This document shows, piece by piece, positions 1 through 52,058 of a stretch of DNA of 64,000 nucleotides; within the stretch, counting starts at the first letter, position 1; each line of letters opens with the position of its first letter. The translations under genes were made by a program, and so were the position numbers. The DNA is taken from contig JADLBH010000010.1 of NCBI GenBank assembly GCA_020847855.1, positions 62,001-126,000 of the forward strand. Direction: 5' to 3'. The DNA comes from Fimbriimonadaceae bacterium. GTDB lineage: Bacteria; Armatimonadota; Fimbriimonadia; Fimbriimonadales; Fimbriimonadaceae. The notes beneath the pieces were generated by a model, which saw only the letters and a list, made by a program, of their open reading frames with translations, did no database searches and was not told the DNA's origin.

Positions 1-1344
1 CCCGGTCGCCACCCTCGCGACCCCGTAGGCGTTCTTGAGCACGTACTTGCGGGGGTTGAAGAACGACCCGTCCGCCCGCACCTGCTCCACGTCCATCACC
101 GCGCCGGAGAACTCGTAGGTCGTCTTGAAGCGCCGCCCGTTCGCGTCGGTCGTGTCCGAGGCCTTCCCGCTCCAGTGGAAGGCGTGGGTCTGCGTCGTGC
201 GCTGCTCGGCGAGCCCTTGGGCCTCGGTCACCGAAGTGGCGTTGAAGTAGGCCTGCGCGCCGTCGCCGCCGTAGGTCGAGGCCGTGCGCACATAGGCCAC
301 CGCCGCTCCCGCCTTGCGCCGGTCCACCGTAATCGGCCGCCCCCTCGAATCGTAGTCGAAGGTGGCGTTCGGGACTGCCGCCGAATTGAGCGTGGCTTGG
401 TCACGGAAGTGGTTCGGGTCGCCCACGTTCTCGACGTGGGGCGTCGCGTGCCGGGCGTCGTAGACGGCCGAGGCCTGCCCGCGCCTGCCCAGCGCGGCCG
501 AGGAGTCGAAGTAGTCGCTCCAGGTGTAGCGCCAAGGCGTCCCCGCGCCAGCGTCCTTGCTCCGTGCGAACTTCTGCTGGAAGTACTTCGAGCGCCCCCA
601 GTACGCGTGCTCGGTCTCGAAGGTCCGGGTCGTCCCGCCCGCGGTGGTCGTGCGCTGCTCGACGACGGTCTCGGAGAGCGGCGCGCCCAGGAAGTTGCTC
701 GAGGTCGTCTTGGTGACGGTGCAAAGGCTGTCCGGCATCCCGCCCGCGACCGCCTGCGCGGCGCTGCCGCGGAAGCTCGAGACGGACTCCAGCTGCATCA
801 ACGACTCCGCGTCGAACTTCGACTTCTGCCAGACCGAGTCGGCGGCAGGAAGCACCGGCCCGTCGTGCACGGTGACGTAGCCCGGGGCGTTCTGGGTCGG
901 CGCGGTATAGGTCCGGGAGAACTCCTTGTCCGGGACGAGGATCAAGCCGCCCGCCGCCTCGACCCGGTACAGCGGAGTGTCCGAGGCGCCATACCCGCTA
1001 GGCGCGCCCGAGGGGATGCCCCGCGGCTTGCCGAGGTTGGTCGTGTCGCCGATGATGTAGCTGCCGTTCGGCCCCCCGAAGTACGTGGTGACCCCGTTCG
1101 GCTCGACGATCTTCCACGCGCTGACGATGTGGGTCCGTAGCGCCGGGATCGGTTCGGTGTCGTAACTGTAGTGGATGCTCGTCACCAGCCCGCGCGGGTC
1201 GGTGACGGTGCTCAGGAACGGGACCCCTTCGCCAGCGATGGGGGTCACGTTCCCGCCCGCGGAGTTCTGCGGCGAGGCGTAGCCGTAGCTAGTGGTCGTG
1301 AACCAAGTCCCAGCGTCGGTAGGCGTCGCCACGCTCTCCGTCAA
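1..1344 (-). CDS. Rhs/YD-repeat core fragment (runs off left edge)
   Basis: An uninterrupted minus-strand frame encodes Rhs-type core sequence, with motifs such as GLVTSIHYSYDTEPIPALRT, ATFDYDSRGRPITVDRRKAG and RTYTAPTQNAPG. Rhs cores form a large beta-cocoon that encloses a C-terminal toxin tip. There is no ATG. The only start-like codon is TTG at 1344-1342, which overlaps the TGA stop of the upstream small membrane protein as TTGA. This is either a translationally coupled restart or a recombination junction that placed an internal core segment behind the immunity-like gene. The 3' end lies outside the window. The Rhs identity is secure; whether it is expressed is unknown. Confidence 0.75.
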   Translation of the reverse strand, partial: MTESVATPTDAGTWFTTTSYGYASPQNSAGGNVTPIAGEGVPFLSTVTDPRGLVTSIHYSYDTEPIPALRTHIVSAWKIVEPNGVTTYFGGPNGSYIIGDTTNLGKPRGIPSGAPSGYGASDTPLYRVEAAGGLILVPDKEFSRTYTAPTQNAPGYVTVHDGPVLPAADSVWQKSKFDAESLMQLESVSSFRGSAAQAVAGGMPDSLCTVTKTTSSNFLGAPLSETVVEQRTTTAGGTTRTFETEHAYWGRSKYFQQKFARSKDAGAGTPWRYTWSDYFDSSAALGRRGQASAVYDARHATPHVENVGDPNHFRDQATLNSAAVPNATFDYDSRGRPITVDRRKAGAAVAYVRTASTYGGDGAQAYFNATSVTEAQGLAEQRTTQTHAFHWSGKASDTTDANGRRFKTTYEFSGAVMDVEQVRADGSFFNPRKYVLKNAYGVARVATG

Positions 1345-23014: not shown

Positions 23015-23374
23015 ATGAACAAGCTAGTCACATTGATCCCCGTCGCCCTAATCATGGGTGCCCTCGTCGTCGGGTGCACCCCGACGGAGCCCGAGGGAAC
23101 CACAACGACCACAAGTGGCACGGACGCCGCCGCCGCAGGAGCCGAGAAGGCTGCCAATGCGGTGACCGACGGCGCTGAGAAGGTCGGCGACGCCGCCGCC
23201 GAGGGTGCCGCCAAGGTTGGCGATGCCGCGGCCGAGGGTGCCGCCAAGGTTGGCGACGCCGCCGCCGAGGGTGCCGCCAAGATGGGCGACGCTGCCGCCG
23301 AGGGTGCTGCCAAGGCCGGCGAAGCCGCCGACAAGGCGGGTGCCGCTGCGGAGACCGCCACCGGCGGCCACTAA
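23015..23374 (+). CDS. alanine-rich repeat lipoprotein (LEA-like)
   Basis: A 119-residue lipoprotein with signal and lipobox VVGC (Cys 21), a Thr-rich linker and five 11-residue repeats of the type KVGDAAAEGAA (residues 56-110). Eleven-residue Ala/Lys/Glu repeats predict an amphipathic helix, as in group 3 LEA and related envelope proteins. It is a single-gene unit with its own promoter candidate and a strong terminator. A role in stress protection or envelope spacing is inference. Confidence 0.75.
   Translation: MNKLVTLIPVALIMGALVVGCTPTEPEGTTTTTSGTDAAAAGAEKAANAVTDGAEKVGDAAAEGAAKVGDAAAEGAAKVGDAAAEGAAKMGDAAAEGAAKAGEAADKAGAAAETATGGH
23180..23344 (+). repeat. 33-bp tandem coding repeat (5 units)
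   Basis: Five units of 33 bases encode 11-residue helix repeats. Units 1-4 are nearly identical in DNA and the fifth is degenerate. Copy number may vary between strains without changing frame. Confidence 0.8.
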
Positions 23375-40920: not shown

Positions 40921-41754
40921 TCAGGGCGATAGCGACGCCCAAAGCACTTTTCCGTCCGACATCCGAACAGCGACCCATGACCCTGGCGGATCGGAATAGG
41001 TCGCTACAAGGCACCAGTAGGCGTTGAGCGAGTCTGCGTAAATCGGGTTCCCACCGTGTTCAAGGGCTTCGACCAGCTCCTTAAGGGAGGCGCAGTACGC
41101 CATTTTCGTTCCGACGAGCTTGGTCGTCTCACCAAACCCACTCTCTCTTGTGTGCTCGTTTGCTATGCGTACGGCCTCTTCTTCCGATACCCCGTCGGTG
41201 CCACGTATGGCGACCATGCGATCCGTCATCTTCGCTAACAGCGGTTGCCCGGTTGCTGCGTCGAACACAAGGTAAGCACCCCGCCGGTGCGGACCGGCGA
41301 AAGGAGGGTCGTCCTTGTAGCCAAGCCGAACGGAAGCCCTCCCACGGACAAAGTCACCAATCGGGCTCTCCGAGTCCCGCTCGATCGTGACTTCACGGAT
41401 CTCCAAGTCGCTTCGAATCCATCGTTGCAAGAAGCCAGTTACAAGGCCGCGAACGTCAGTTTCGTCGAGGTAGGAAGTAGGGGGGGGCCTTCGTTCATCG
41501 TTGTGGCCAGACCCGGGCCGCTGCACCGACCATGAGATCAGCCGCCCGTCGTCCCCTCGGATCCTGGCCCATCCGTGGTCGCCGGCAGACACCGATAGGC
41601 TTTCCGCCATGCTCGGTGCCGCGATCCATTGTCCCCATTCTGGTACGGGGCTCCCGTTGAGAGCAGCTAGGAACTCCGCGACGGTCTGCCGCGGATCGGT
41701 CTGGTAGCCCTGCGACACCAAAGAGGCCAAGATCGTCGCGGAAGCGAGCGTCAT
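40921..41754 (-). CDS. hypothetical secreted protein, second gene of a two-gene module
   Basis: ATG at 41754 overlaps the stop of the upstream gene (ATGA) and starts a short hydrophobic N-terminus (TLASATILASLVSQGY). The 277-residue product has repeated beta-rich segments such as GAYLVFDAATGQPLLAKM and WVAVRMSDGKVLWASL, somewhat like PepSY-type folds, but no confident family. It is translationally coupled to the phase-variable candidate upstream. Confidence 0.55.
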   Translation of the reverse strand: MTLASATILASLVSQGYQTDPRQTVAEFLAALNGSPVPEWGQWIAAPSMAESLSVSAGDHGWARIRGDDGRLISWSVQRPGSGHNDERRPPPTSYLDETDVRGLVTGFLQRWIRSDLEIREVTIERDSESPIGDFVRGRASVRLGYKDDPPFAGPHRRGAYLVFDAATGQPLLAKMTDRMVAIRGTDGVSEEEAVRIANEHTRESGFGETTKLVGTKMAYCASLKELVEALEHGGNPIYADSLNAYWCLVATYSDPPGSWVAVRMSDGKVLWASLSP

Positions 41755-42763
41755 GGTGCCACCTTCCAAACACCGATGCGGTTCCCGGGCGTGCCGTCGT
41801 ACAGCCACCGCAGCCTAGCGTTCGGATCGCCGAAGACGCGGTACGAGGGTACTTCCTCTTCTCCAAAGGCCGCAGCTGCTGCAAGGGCAACCGCAGCCTC
41901 GGCCTCATCGCCCTCGTTGTGTCTCCCGATGTATATCCGGAAGAACATCTCACCAACCTGATACTCGATCGCCTTTCGAAACCCGATCGTGAAACGGTTC
42001 GTCGTGGACGGCTCTTCCTCACGGAGGTACGCCTTGAGGAACGCCTCCGTCGAGCTTGCGTTGCAGGCGCCGATCATGGCCTGCTTCGTCGAAGGCTGCG
42101 GGCCGGGAACCGCGTCGCGAACGTCGTTCGCGAAGATCGTCCCACCGCCTCCCGGCGGCACCAGGCCTCCGGGGTTCCCGTGCGAGAAGACCACGTGGAC
42201 CTGCATGGACGGGAGCTTACCAAGGTAGTCGCCCTTCGTCCAGCTTGCCGAGTCGAGGCCGGGCAGCTCCCCGTATTTCGACGTCTCCAGCTTCTCCTTG
42301 AACACGGCGTACGTCCCGCTCGGGGTCGGACCCGTGTCCACGCAGAGCACGAAGCCGTTCACGACGCCTCGCGTTGTGGTCCCGCCCTTAACGACCTTCC
42401 ACACCGGGTTCTCTGGCGTTCTAGCGTAGATCTTGAAGGTGACGGTCTTGCCGTGCTCCCAGTGGGTCGAGTCGAAGTGGCAGAGCAGCTCTGCCTGGGG
42501 TACCGGCGGAGCGGGTTCGGGCGGGAACGCGTCCAAGTCAAGCTCCTCTTCGCTCTCGGTCCCGATCTGGCTCACAACCTTGATCTCCAGCAGGCGCCCT
42601 TCGCCCGGCTCGATCGTGACCGTGCAACGGATCGTGTTGCGAGTGGACGTCAAGGGAGCGGGAAGCTCGTCAAACGTTCCCGTGGCGGCCATTGCCCCCC
42701 CCCCCCCGCACATACGGAGGCGAGAACCGCGGCCGCCCGTGCGAGGGTGGTGAGCGGTCTCAT
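41751..42763 (-). CDS. hypothetical secreted protein, out of frame with its signal peptide at a G13 tract
   Basis: A good signal peptide (MRPLTTLARAAAVLASVCA, start 42763) leads directly into thirteen G (coding strand). At this length its frame ends soon afterwards at a TGA. The long downstream frame (mature protein from MAATGTFDELPAPL, 313 residues, ending at 41751) is in another register. A tract of 11 or 14 would join them. The mature part has a beta-rich region (HFDSTHWEHGKTVTFKIYAR) and HVVFSHGNPGGLVPPGGGG; no family is known. Either phase variation or a homopolymer error explains the break. Confidence 0.6.
42695..42707. repeat. poly-C tract (13) at signal peptide junction
   Basis: The longest homopolymer in the window. 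It lies exactly between the signal peptide and the mature part of the minus-strand secreted protein. Confidence 0.9.
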
Positions 42764-42834
42764 CGAGCCAAGCTTGGCACTGTGGTCCGACCGAAGTCAA
42801 CCCCCTGGCCGCAGAATCCTCCATACTTACGCCC

Positions 42835-43932
42835 GTGGCCGAGATGCACGACCTCACCGCTCCCTGCATCCGGTGCGGGTTCTGCCTGGAGGCCTGCCCG
42901 ACCTTCGTCCTGACCGGCGACGAGGCGCGCTCGCCGCGGGGCCGCATCCACCTCGCCAAGGCAGCGATGTTCCAAGGGGGCGCAGAGGCGTTCGACACCT
43001 GCCTTGGCTGCCTGGCTTGCGAGACCGCCTGCCCGAGCGGAGTGCGCTACAGAGAGATCCTAGAGCACGCACGGGCACGCCTGGAAGCCGAGCGGCCCAG
43101 ACCTGGGCTCCGGGCACTCCTCGCCGTGGTCACCCGCCCGCGGCTCCTCCGCCCCGCGATCCTGATGGCCGGACTCTTGCCTGGTCGCCACTTACCGGGC
43201 TGGCTGGCGCGCGCCTTTGGCGGGATCGGACCGGCGCGACTGCCCGAGGCGGCGAAGCACCCGGGCTGGGCTCCCTACGACGGCCCGACGCCCAGGGGCA
43301 CGGTGCCGGTCTTGCGCGGCTGCGCGATGGACGTGCTCTTCCCCCACGTCCACGAGGCGACGGAACGGCTCTTGGCACGTGTCGGCTTTCGAGCCGGATG
43401 GAGCAACGGCTGCTGTGGCGCGCTCCACTCGCATGCGGGGTTTACAAGTCAAGGGGGGGGGATGGCAGAACGGCACGGCCCAGATGTCCTGACGAACTCA
43501 GCCGGTTGCGGCAGCCATATCCCCGGGAGCGAGGACGTTACGACGTTCCTCCTGCGGAATGGGTTGGAAAAGATGCTGACCAGGGCTCTCCCACGACCGC
43601 GACGAGTCGCCTATATGGACGCTTGCCACCTAGTCCACGGCCAGCGGGTGTTGGACCCGCCACGACGGTTGCTCCGTGCCGTTCCTGGATTAGAGCTGAT
43701 GGAGCTCGACGATTGCCACTGTTGCGGGAGCGCCGGACTTTACAGCATGCTCCAGCCGACGACCGCCGAAGCGTTGCTAGACCGTAAGTGGCAGAGCGTC
43801 CTGCGCACCGGTGCTAGCATCCTTGCGGTCGGGAATCCCGGTTGCCTCTCCTGGCTCGCCGAACGTGCCGAAGGCAGTACAGTGCGCGTCGCTCACACGC
43901 TCGAGTTGCTTGAGGAAGCGTTCGATCACTAG
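42835..43932 (+). CDS. glcF: glycolate oxidase iron-sulfur subunit-like protein
   Basis: A 365-residue protein with two 4Fe-4S motifs (CIRCGFCLEACP and CLGCLACETACPSG) and two CCG domains (GCCGALHSHAG and CHCCGSAGLYS), the GlcF/GlpC/LutA plan. It transfers electrons from a flavin subunit (GlcD/E), but none is adjacent. GTG at 42835 or ATG at 42844 may start it. A run of nine G at 43453-43461 inside the gene encodes part of SQGGGMAERHG, so tract slippage would truncate it. Confidence 0.85.
   Translation: MAEMHDLTAPCIRCGFCLEACPTFVLTGDEARSPRGRIHLAKAAMFQGGAEAFDTCLGCLACETACPSGVRYREILEHARARLEAERPRPGLRALLAVVTRPRLLRPAILMAGLLPGRHLPGWLARAFGGIGPARLPEAAKHPGWAPYDGPTPRGTVPVLRGCAMDVLFPHVHEATERLLARVGFRAGWSNGCCGALHSHAGFTSQGGGMAERHGPDVLTNSAGCGSHIPGSEDVTTFLLRNGLEKMLTRALPRPRRVAYMDACHLVHGQRVLDPPRRLLRAVPGLELMELDDCHCCGSAGLYSMLQPTTAEALLDRKWQSVLRTGASILAVGNPGCLSWLAERAEGSTVRVAHTLELLEEAFDH
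43453..43461. repeat. poly-G tract (9) within glcF
   Basis: Nine G read in frame within the intact glcF-like gene, between the first CCG motif and the second half. Confidence 0.85.
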
Positions 43933-49727: not shown

Positions 49728-50525
49728 GTGACCCCGAACGCACCTCTCCCTGACGTCCAGAAGACTCCAGACGGTCGAAACATCGCGATTGACAAGGTCG
49801 GGGTTCGCGGCGTTAAGTTCCCTATCGAAGTGCTCGACCGCGAGAACGGTCGCCAGCGCACCATCGGCAACTTCACCCTTACCGTGGACCTCCCGGCTGA
49901 GTTCAAGGGAACCCACATGAGCCGGTTCCTGGAGGCCCTCAACGCGGTGGGGCACGAGGTGAGCACGGCCAGCCTGCCGGCCCTTGTCCACGACCTCACC
50001 GAGCGGCTCCACGCTGCTAAGGCGCACGTGGACGTGACGTTCCCGTTCTTCCGCGAAAAGAAGGCGCCGGTGACGGGTAGGGCAGGGATGATGGAGTACG
50101 AGTGCGGGTTCCAGTGCGAGGGCAACGGCGAGTTCCGCACTACGCTGTATACGCGGGTGCCGGTGGCGACCCTGTGCCCCTGTAGCAAAGAGATCAGCGC
50201 GTATGGGGCGCACAACCAGCGCGGGTGGATCACCGTGCGGCTGGAGGCGTCCGAGCACGTCTGGCTCGAAGAGGTAGTGGACTGGTGCGAGGAGTCGGGC
50301 TCGTGCGCGCTGTTCCCCGTGCTAAAGCGGCCGGACGAGAAGTGGGTGACCGAAAGGGCTTATGAGAACCCGCGGTTCGTGGAGGACGTGATCCGCGAGG
50401 TGGCGCTGCGCCTGGACGCCGACAAGCGGGTGACGGCCTACGAGATCGAGGTCGAGAACGAAGAGTCCATCCACGCGCACAACGCGTACGCGTACCTGCG
50501 GCGGGGCAAGCCGCCCAAGGGGTAG
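49728..50525 (+). CDS. folE2: GTP cyclohydrolase FolE2
   Basis: A 265-residue type IB GTP cyclohydrolase, the first enzyme of tetrahydrofolate and queuosine synthesis, which can use metals other than zinc. The metal-binding Cys is in VATLCPCSKEISAYGAHNQR, and HAHNAYAYLRRG closes the protein. GTG at 49728 is the start. It stands alone between two secreted-protein modules. Confidence 0.93.
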   Translation: MTPNAPLPDVQKTPDGRNIAIDKVGVRGVKFPIEVLDRENGRQRTIGNFTLTVDLPAEFKGTHMSRFLEALNAVGHEVSTASLPALVHDLTERLHAAKAHVDVTFPFFREKKAPVTGRAGMMEYECGFQCEGNGEFRTTLYTRVPVATLCPCSKEISAYGAHNQRGWITVRLEASEHVWLEEVVDWCEESGSCALFPVLKRPDEKWVTERAYENPRFVEDVIREVALRLDADKRVTAYEIEVENEESIHAHNAYAYLRRGKPPKG

Positions 50526-50544
50526 GGGGCGGCCTAGGACCTAC

Positions 50545-50550
50545 TTGACA
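50545..50550 (+). promoter_or_regulatory. perfect -35 box (TTGACA) before repeat array
   Basis: TTGACA occurs just before the 8-bp repeat array. The repeat itself supplies GCTAAT or TAATGC elements as weak -10 candidates at 17-20 bases, so the promoter may overlap the array. Confidence 0.4.
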
Positions 50551-50556
50551 AATCGC

Positions 50557-50618
50557 ATGCGCTAATGCGCTAATGCGCTAATGCGCTAATGCGCTAATGC
50601 GCTAATGCGCTAATGCGC
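50557..50618 (+). repeat. 8-bp tandem repeat forming a ladder of start-Arg-stop mini-ORFs
   Basis: Seven perfect copies of ATGCGCTA are followed by a partial copy ATGCGC. Each unit reads ATG CGC TAA, with the TAA overlapping the next ATG as TAATG. Since 8 is not a multiple of 3, each unit uses the next frame. The last ATG (50613) has no stop and is in frame with the secreted protein gene that follows. Confidence 0.95.
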
Positions 50619-51128
50619 ACATCGCATCCATTCATGGCCCGTCCTGGTGTCGTCTCTCTGCTTTCTCTGACTGCGACGCTCACTTTCGCCCAAGGGGCTT
50701 GGTTGCCAGATAGTCCTGCGCCAGTGATGTCGGCGGGAGTCGATCCGGCATTCAAACAAGTAATCACAGGAACTGTCTGGGCGGGGAACGCATTCGCAAC
50801 AGATCACGATACGTACAAGCGAAAGAAGCAGGACGAGGAAGGCTATGAGTACCTTGTTATCGCCAGCACGGCGCACTCCGTGTCCGTCCTCGAGGTACAA
50901 TCTGGAACGCAAATGGCGTTTGTCCTAAGCAGTTTCATCAACGGTACGGCGACCTACACTCATACGATCAAGGCACTGGAAGGATTGGCCGTCGGCCAGG
51001 TGGAAGTGCGCGTGGACCGCTATCTTGCCACGGATGGAACCGGAAACAGCTTTTTGAAGGATGGCGACATCGAGGTTTCACGTACGGTCACGATCACCGG
51101 GCCCTCGGGACAAGGAGGGGGAGGTTAA
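50613..51128 (+). CDS. hypothetical secreted protein, first gene of module 3
   Basis: The start is either the last ATG of the repeat ladder (50613) or ATG at 50634, which gives the better signal peptide (MARPGVVSLLSLTATLTFAQ). The mature part of about 140 residues is beta-rich (YEYLVIASTAHSVSVLEVQS) and ends in Gly-rich SGQGGGG. It resembles a small Ig-like or pilus-type domain but no family was recognised. A second secreted protein gene follows after nine bases. Confidence 0.6.
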   Translation: MRTSHPFMARPGVVSLLSLTATLTFAQGAWLPDSPAPVMSAGVDPAFKQVITGTVWAGNAFATDHDTYKRKKQDEEGYEYLVIASTAHSVSVLEVQSGTQMAFVLSSFINGTATYTHTIKALEGLAVGQVEVRVDRYLATDGTGNSFLKDGDIEVSRTVTITGPSGQGGGG

Positions 51129-51137
51129 GCTTCAAGC

Positions 51138-52058
51138 ATGCTCCTACTACTTGCAGCAACGTTTGTATTTGAAGGGGGGCGAACGGGAACGCTCGCCTGC
51201 CAACTCGCCGAAGCTACGATGCATCCGTGGATCGCAGGGATCGGTACCGAACCATCGGTCGAAAAGTTTGAGGTGCGGGATGTCGAACCGGTTCTGAAGA
51301 TCGGGGCCTTCCAAGTCGAGTTGGCGAAAGCTCTAGCAGGGCCACTTTCCCCGACCACTGGGGCGCTTCCTCCCCGAAGGCTCAACTCACTGGGTGCAGG
51401 CGGACCGAAGAAGTTGGACGACTACGTTCTGGGGAACACTCAAGACCCCAACGCGATTGCGGTCACGGACGAGGGCAAGGTCGTTTTTGGGCCGACAGGT
51501 GCGAAGTCTGTCTCGTGGCAGATACTCGAAAGGAATTTGAAAGTCAAGCTCGATGTCCACTTCCTCTACCGGCAGACGCTGTTTGCCGGGAGCGCCCAAC
51601 ATTTAGGAACCAAGGAGTTCCTCGATCTCGCGGCGGCGGCGGTGGGCGCCCGCGTGCGCGAGGATGACGGTACCTATCACGTCGAGCCGGACTACGGCGT
51701 CCTCCGACGCCAGCTCGTCGCGCTCCACGAGGACAGAAGCCTAAGCTCGCCCCACGCCGGCATCAGGAAGTCAGGCAAGTTCGCCGCTTCCGTGATCGGC
51801 GAGATTCCGGAGCAAGCGATGAAAGCAGCGTTCGCCAAAGAAGGCGCGCGCATCATCTTTGAAGCGAACCTGGTTCAATCGGAACAGGCGGTGAGCTACC
51901 TCCTTAGTTGCCGTGAAGAACTCCCTGGCCTAGTTCGCACCATCGTGGACAACGGGTGCCTCACGCGTCCGATCGGAATCGAACTGAATTCGGATGGTAG
52001 CGTCCAGGCGGCGTTCCGTGGCCCCCCCGGTACGCAGCAGGTTACTTACTTCCTCTAG
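51138..52058 (+). CDS. hypothetical secreted protein, second gene of module 3
   Basis: A 306-residue protein with a short hydrophobic N-terminus (LLLLAATFVFEG). The middle has KEFLDLAAAAVGARVREDDG, recalling KDFETLAEAAKRAGA in the second gene of module 2, and the C-terminus PIGIELNSDGSVQAAFRG also has a counterpart there. No known family. It is probably co-transcribed with the small gene upstream. Confidence 0.55.
   Translation: MLLLLAATFVFEGGRTGTLACQLAEATMHPWIAGIGTEPSVEKFEVRDVEPVLKIGAFQVELAKALAGPLSPTTGALPPRRLNSLGAGGPKKLDDYVLGNTQDPNAIAVTDEGKVVFGPTGAKSVSWQILERNLKVKLDVHFLYRQTLFAGSAQHLGTKEFLDLAAAAVGARVREDDGTYHVEPDYGVLRRQLVALHEDRSLSSPHAGIRKSGKFAASVIGEIPEQAMKAAFAKEGARIIFEANLVQSEQAVSYLLSCREELPGLVRTIVDNGCLTRPIGIELNSDGSVQAAFRGPPGTQQVTYFL

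Follow-up and report, generated by a model that had tools for sequence, protein, structure and literature searches.

An octanucleotide repeat spanning the start codon of a putatively secreted two-gene module in a Fimbriimonadaceae genome: a probable contingency locus of the promoter/start type

The 64-kb window of a Fimbriimonadaceae genome analyzed here contains a perfect tandem array of an 8-bp unit that leads into the start of a gene whose product is putatively secreted. An array in this position raises the question of whether its unit number controls the gene, and by what route. The original prediction was that the units form a ladder of overlapping start-Arg-stop reading frames along which a ribosome could step, and that the repeat acts as a copy-number-tuned rheostat for the downstream gene pair. 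Our analysis suggests that the array is probably a slipped-strand (simple sequence repeat) contingency locus of the promoter/start type that would control this two-gene module. In the same reading, the genome would carry a whole set of phase-variation elements, the array among them.

A closed octanucleotide array at the start of a two-gene module

The array, the module, and the gene upstream of them are as follows.

50557..50618, plus strand: octanucleotide array, (ATGCGCTA)x7 followed by ATGCGC (TRF and pattern search)
49728..50525, plus strand: folE2, the upstream gene, type I GTP cyclohydrolase, GCHY-1 (Pfam PF02649, E 6e-92)
50613..51128, plus strand: gene 1, 171 aa, signal-peptide-like N-terminus and GGGG C-terminus (ORF; paralogue; distant homologues)
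51138..52058, plus strand: gene 2, 306 aa, hydrophobic N-terminus (ORF; C13 paralogue with 38% identity)

The predicted seven perfect copies were recovered by both methods. TRF describes 50557-50618 as period 8 with 7.8 copies, 100% matches, and a score of 124, and the pattern search finds seven tandem copies of the unit and one copy elsewhere in the 64-kb window. None of the shuffled controls (0/100) reached eight matches to the unit, and the array is beyond chance. An array of such quality is unexpected by chance because a Markov-3 control yields only 1.5 arrays per Mb over all periods from 4 to 11. Each unit reads ATG CGC TAA, and TAATG occurs at 7/7 junctions with one A common to the stop and the start, exactly as had been described. 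All three frames of the unit are interrupted by stops (cyclic peptide M-R-stop-C-A-N-A-L), and the array abuts the start codon directly. The eighth ATG, at 50613, opens the ORF that runs to 51128.

Because no frame of the unit is open to translation, the window array, unlike the other 8-bp loci of the genome, cannot be a frame switch. This leaves its copy number four routes of action: the distance from promoter to start, the length of the leader, RNA structure, or reinitiation. The expectation that gain or loss of a unit spares the final frame and shifts the distance from TTGACA to the start holds for this array. The exact unit number could be a population consensus, since the genome is a single draft assembly. 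A search of viral contigs for the array junction returned no match.

Gene 2 begins 9 bp past gene 1, and the product of gene 1 is probably secreted, a call made by eye from the N-terminal sequence without a predictor. A Pfam search with both module proteins and four proteins from array loci returned no family. Two candidate relationships of gene 1 were rejected: profile matches solely to artificial armadillo-repeat proteins (E about 0.004), in which no stretch passes alone, and a match in G016 that falls inside a transporter gene. Among folE2 relatives with named records, MAGs of Fimbriimonadaceae are the nearest.

Paralogous modules and the reinitiation ladder

A DNA search with the window locus identified a second locus in the same genome at C13:38880 (module at C13:38920). 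Its layout is CCTGGGACCTACTTGACAAATC, then ATGCGCACAA ATGCGCAA ATGCGCAAATCGCAT, and its gene pair shares 49% and 38% protein identity with the window pair. The first genes at both loci open with ATGCGC (MRTSH and MRKSH), evidence that 50613 is the true start and that, as claimed, the eighth ATG begins a gene. The ATGCGC core is common to the two loci, while the linker differs. The C5 locus shows the module architecture for a third time: its gene 1 ends TFTGPGSGGQGGGG, where window gene 1 ends TITGPSGQGGGG, the second gene comes next, and its 7-mer, ATGGGCC, supplies one ATG per unit.

The paralogue bears directly on the reinitiation ladder, in which a ribosome would initiate at an upstream unit, translate Met-Arg, terminate at TAATG, and move on to the following ATG until it reached the real ORF, with the unit number setting output in small increments. 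All window junctions are TAATG and no unit can be read through, the start ATG is kept in the paralogue, and a leaderless-type start would put the 5' end of the transcript on the unit-4 ATG. However, the C13 units, ATGCGCAA, carry no stop codon, and the start-Arg-stop ladder is therefore a property of the window copy and not of the family. The units are also preceded by no Shine-Dalgarno sequence, and any octamer repeat of the form ATG-N3-TA yields mini-ORFs automatically. We regard the ladder as a rather unlikely explanation in its own right and as a possible consequence of the contingency explanation, rather than its opposite.

A conserved upstream block and leaderless geometry

Two features define the geometry between the upstream block and the start.

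50533..50554, plus strand: conserved upstream block CCTAGGACCTACTTGACAAATC (21/22 bases the same upstream of the C13 paralogue)
50569..50574, plus strand: GCTAAT, weak -10 candidate in leaderless geometry (sequence; geometry of other array loci)

The block contains a TTGACA box at 50545-50550, and GACCTACTTGACA occurs in exactly two copies in the genome with at most one mismatch. It is probably functional, since these bases were kept while the downstream genes diverged widely. The block was rejected as a general motif in relatives, where its 1-mismatch matches are no higher than in the control.

In the sampled genes, TANNNT peaks 6 bp before start codons (16/273 versus about 2 per other offset), which is a mark of leaderless transcription, and leaderless genes appear common in the lineage. 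Histograms of TTGACA-to-start gaps were informative for first starts alone; those for all in-frame starts are swamped by internal codons. The gap is 62 bp in the window and 22 bp at C13, both 6 mod 8, and 28-33 bp at other loci. GCTAAT lies 18 bp past TTGACA and 6 bp ahead of the unit-4 ATG (50581). The window array contains no TANNNT box, with GCTAAT, a poor -10, as its best offer, and a promoter/terminator scan around the array matched no sigma-70-type site. These points count against the contingency reading, and TTGACA plus the array is an unproven candidate for an active promoter, given an array without TANNNT.

Unit number may also act through RNA structure. The window array RNA forms nested 4-bp GCGC stems (z -2.96 for the whole array and -2.73 from unit 4), and an AUGCG-N5-CGCAU pairing is possible in the start regions of both the window and the C13 paralogue. 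An operator or structural switch would have ATGCGC bind a regulator or GCGC stems sequester the start, with unit number or parity setting access. Retention of the ATGCGC core in both paralogues despite a changed linker is consistent with this, as are the nested stems and the shared pairing. However, such folding is expected of any GCGC repeat, the C13 start region is of ordinary stability (z -0.11), and the other ATGCGC-containing arrays in the genome sit inside ORFs. We consider this explanation quite improbable.

The contingency-locus reading draws on a different combination of observations. The repeat is perfect, its unit length is not divisible by 3, and it runs up to the start codon of an ORF that begins like a signal peptide, with the TTGACA block upstream. 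The genome carries a wider set of tracts on secreted-type proteins, and G-tracts occur both in this genome and in relatives. Slippage would add or remove units and alter both the distance from the TTGACA block to the start and the leader that precedes it, but never the reading frame. The most likely detail is that three units would leave a 30-bp gap, the leaderless geometry of the other loci. At the present seven units, the transcript would start about 30 bp past TTGACA, near the unit-4 ATG, and four extra Met-Arg-stop mini-ORFs would lie in a GCGC-paired leader. Such an extended leader would be expected to lower translation of the real ORF. The evidence for this start-distance model is geometric.

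A specific form of the model is a molecular counter, in which TTGACA would set the transcript start about 30 bp on, three units would give a leaderless mRNA beginning at the true ATG, and every extra unit would add a leaderless Met-Arg-stop mini-ORF to be traversed through reinitiation at TAATG. We hold this form to be unlikely. If true, the counter would provide graded, heritable expression set by slippage, with the reading frame held constant. The window and C13 arrays also span the start, unlike the others, which lie in an ORF or in a clean promoter spacer, and this difference likewise counts against the contingency reading.

Frame-shifting arrays at other secreted-protein genes

The genome was sampled in stretches (about 0.75 Mb), and the array census covers 646 kb, including the window. 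Arrays with periods of 4-11 occur in the 646-kb sample at 15.5 per Mb versus 1.5 in the Markov-3 control. The frame-shifting 5-, 7-, and 8-bp arrays in these 646 kb lie in the window and at C4, C5, C15, and C19, and all are at the 5' ends of secreted-type genes. The array at C4 is a 5-mer and those at C5, C15, and C19 are 7-mers, all at gene starts. The genome-wide set comprises 13 frame-shifting arrays and two shorter ones. A repeat of another kind is present at positions 23123-23330 of the window, where a 33/66-bp tandem repeat apparently codes for a repetitive Ala-rich stretch. The 7-bp array at G000:C19:13422-13447 lies at a gene start with an in-frame stop also in the downstream frame, and its gene may be an OFF gene that has decayed.

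A search for ATGCGCNN arrays brought up CGGCGCAT arrays at two further loci.

G000:C27:39830-46075 and G000:C37:225083-230271: octamer arrays at the 5' coding ends of a divergent secreted-protein family

Six octamer arrays are located just past the ATG, three at C27 and three at C37, one of the latter being CGGCGCTT. They sit just downstream of TTGACA-like-17/18-TANNNT-6..10-ATG, within the first codons of secreted-type proteins. At 6/6 loci the frame from the ATG closes after 18-74 codons; at every one of them, an in-silico gain or loss of one unit or two yields an ORF of 341-437 aa that has its signal peptide in frame. Based on the in-silico frame, all six genes are predicted to be OFF, a state that is of interest in itself. 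A profile of this family returned no match against the PDB. The three C27 paralogue promoters are identical at 51-64 of 68 bases yet are followed by 3, 4, and 9 units, which indicates that unit number has changed since duplication; elsewhere among paralogues in this one genome, the window has 7 units and C13 has 2. Loss of mismatch repair is not indicated, because MutS-family genes are present in the genome.

The window also contains a G13 tract (42695-42707, minus strand) inside the signal-peptide region of the ORF at 41751-43046. The ATG-led frame (MRPLTTLARAAAVLASVCAGGGGQ...) stops soon past the tract, while a 431-aa frame runs on and is a distant relative of the C27/C37 family. The gene with this tract is probably a further phase-variable gene in the OFF state, as judged from its frames.

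Alternatively, slippage could have expanded a GC-palindromic start region neutrally, without selected function. GCGC octamers seem expansion-prone in this genome, and selection on copy number is unproven. However, in every frame-shifting case examined, the repeat lies at the 5' end of a secreted-type gene, the block upstream of the window array is strongly conserved, and relatives carry independent units and G-tracts at equivalent positions. Neutral expansion is very improbable on these grounds. As for the rheostat originally proposed, a role in tuning expression fits the arrays at secreted-protein genes and the TTGACA-associated tracts of relatives, while the stop-start ladder is not supported in the form proposed. 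The genome-wide repeat set looks built for random on/off switching of secreted-protein genes, a behavior known from some pathogens. The window array is a distinct subtype within it, a repeat that contains the start codon, and expression could thus be tuned without loss of frame.

Comparison with known repeat systems

Simple-repeat contingency loci of Haemophilus influenzae include the lic tetranucleotides and, upstream of the hmw adhesin genes, heptamers and the octamer GCATCATC (PMC2651432). As in the window, short tandem units that include 7- and 8-mers lie in the promoter or 5' ORF of surface-protein genes (PMC2651432), and copy number is expected to switch or tune expression. In contrast, H. 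influenzae is a host-adapted pathogen and the hmw repeats lie roughly 70-210 bp upstream (PMC2651432), whereas the window array includes the start codon and cannot be read through in any frame. In Moraxella catarrhalis, UspA1 has a G-tract and UspA2 has AGAT repeats in the 5' leader (as cited in PMC4679880). These repeats resemble the window array in lying between promoter and start and tuning a surface protein, but their units are different and the leader repeats are upstream of a separate start (PMC4679880). The window array, unlike that of UspA, has an ATG and a stop in each unit.

The TAACTGA heptamer repeats of Beggiatoaceae, Cyanobacteria, and Bacteroidetes resemble the window array in placement: they directly adjoin start codons, stand in for the ribosome-binding site, and carry stops in all three frames (PMC4679880). 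Their unit lacks an ATG, however, while the window unit is ATGCGCTA. One genome has 169 sets of these repeats upstream of genes of mixed function, and they have been proposed as regulator-binding sites, not contingency loci (PMC4679880).

Phase variation by simple repeats is known best from pathogens adapted to a host. The window comes from a free-living bacterium, and its family, the Fimbriimonadaceae, is an environmental lineage. A limited literature search found no paper linking phase variation to Armatimonadota/Armatimonadetes, and this is provisionally the first report of such a repeat set in Armatimonadota. The repertoire combines 5-, 7-, and 8-bp arrays in signal-peptide regions with G-tracts in TTGACA promoters, all at uncharacterised secreted families across the Fimbriimonadaceae. 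It raises the question of what these putatively secreted proteins face: phage, predators, or neighbours.

Variable tracts between TTGACA and the start across the order

In the search that brought up the C27 and C37 arrays, only one of 60 relatives gave a match, a single copy with two mismatches. The divergent C27/C37 protein family is present in 20/113 genomes of the order. At the 5' ends of its members in relatives, slippage tracts of other kinds occur: G081 has TCGGT repeats following the ATG, G007 and G100 have G7-G9 tracts, and G014 has a long C-tract. Neither of the module homologues in G048 and G091 has an array. The distant homologue of gene 1 in G048 is preceded by TTGACA-AT(C8)ACAGGTA-TACAAC-GCCTC-ATG, and the window array occupies the interval from TTGACA to the start, as this C8 tract does.

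In poly-G/poly-C promoter-spacer phase variation of the Neisseria porA/opc type, the tract lies between the -35 and the -10. This design is matched by TTGACA-polyG-TANNNT sites in relatives, of which the 113 genomes contain 30 versus 1 for a reversed-pattern control. The sites, with tracts of G7-15 and most spacers near 17-19 bp, occur in G007, G014, G023, G032, G100, G102, and G104, among others, and are sequence-based candidates for promoter phase variation across the order. The window differs from porA/opc in having an octamer as its tract, which takes the place of the -10 and the start as well. Together with the C8 tract of G048, the poly-G sites indicate that placing a variable tract between TTGACA and the start is a design that recurs in the order. 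The Fimbriimonadaceae genome itself yielded a single such promoter-spacer site, at G000:C5:2046-2072, with TTGACA, G9, and TACTTT.
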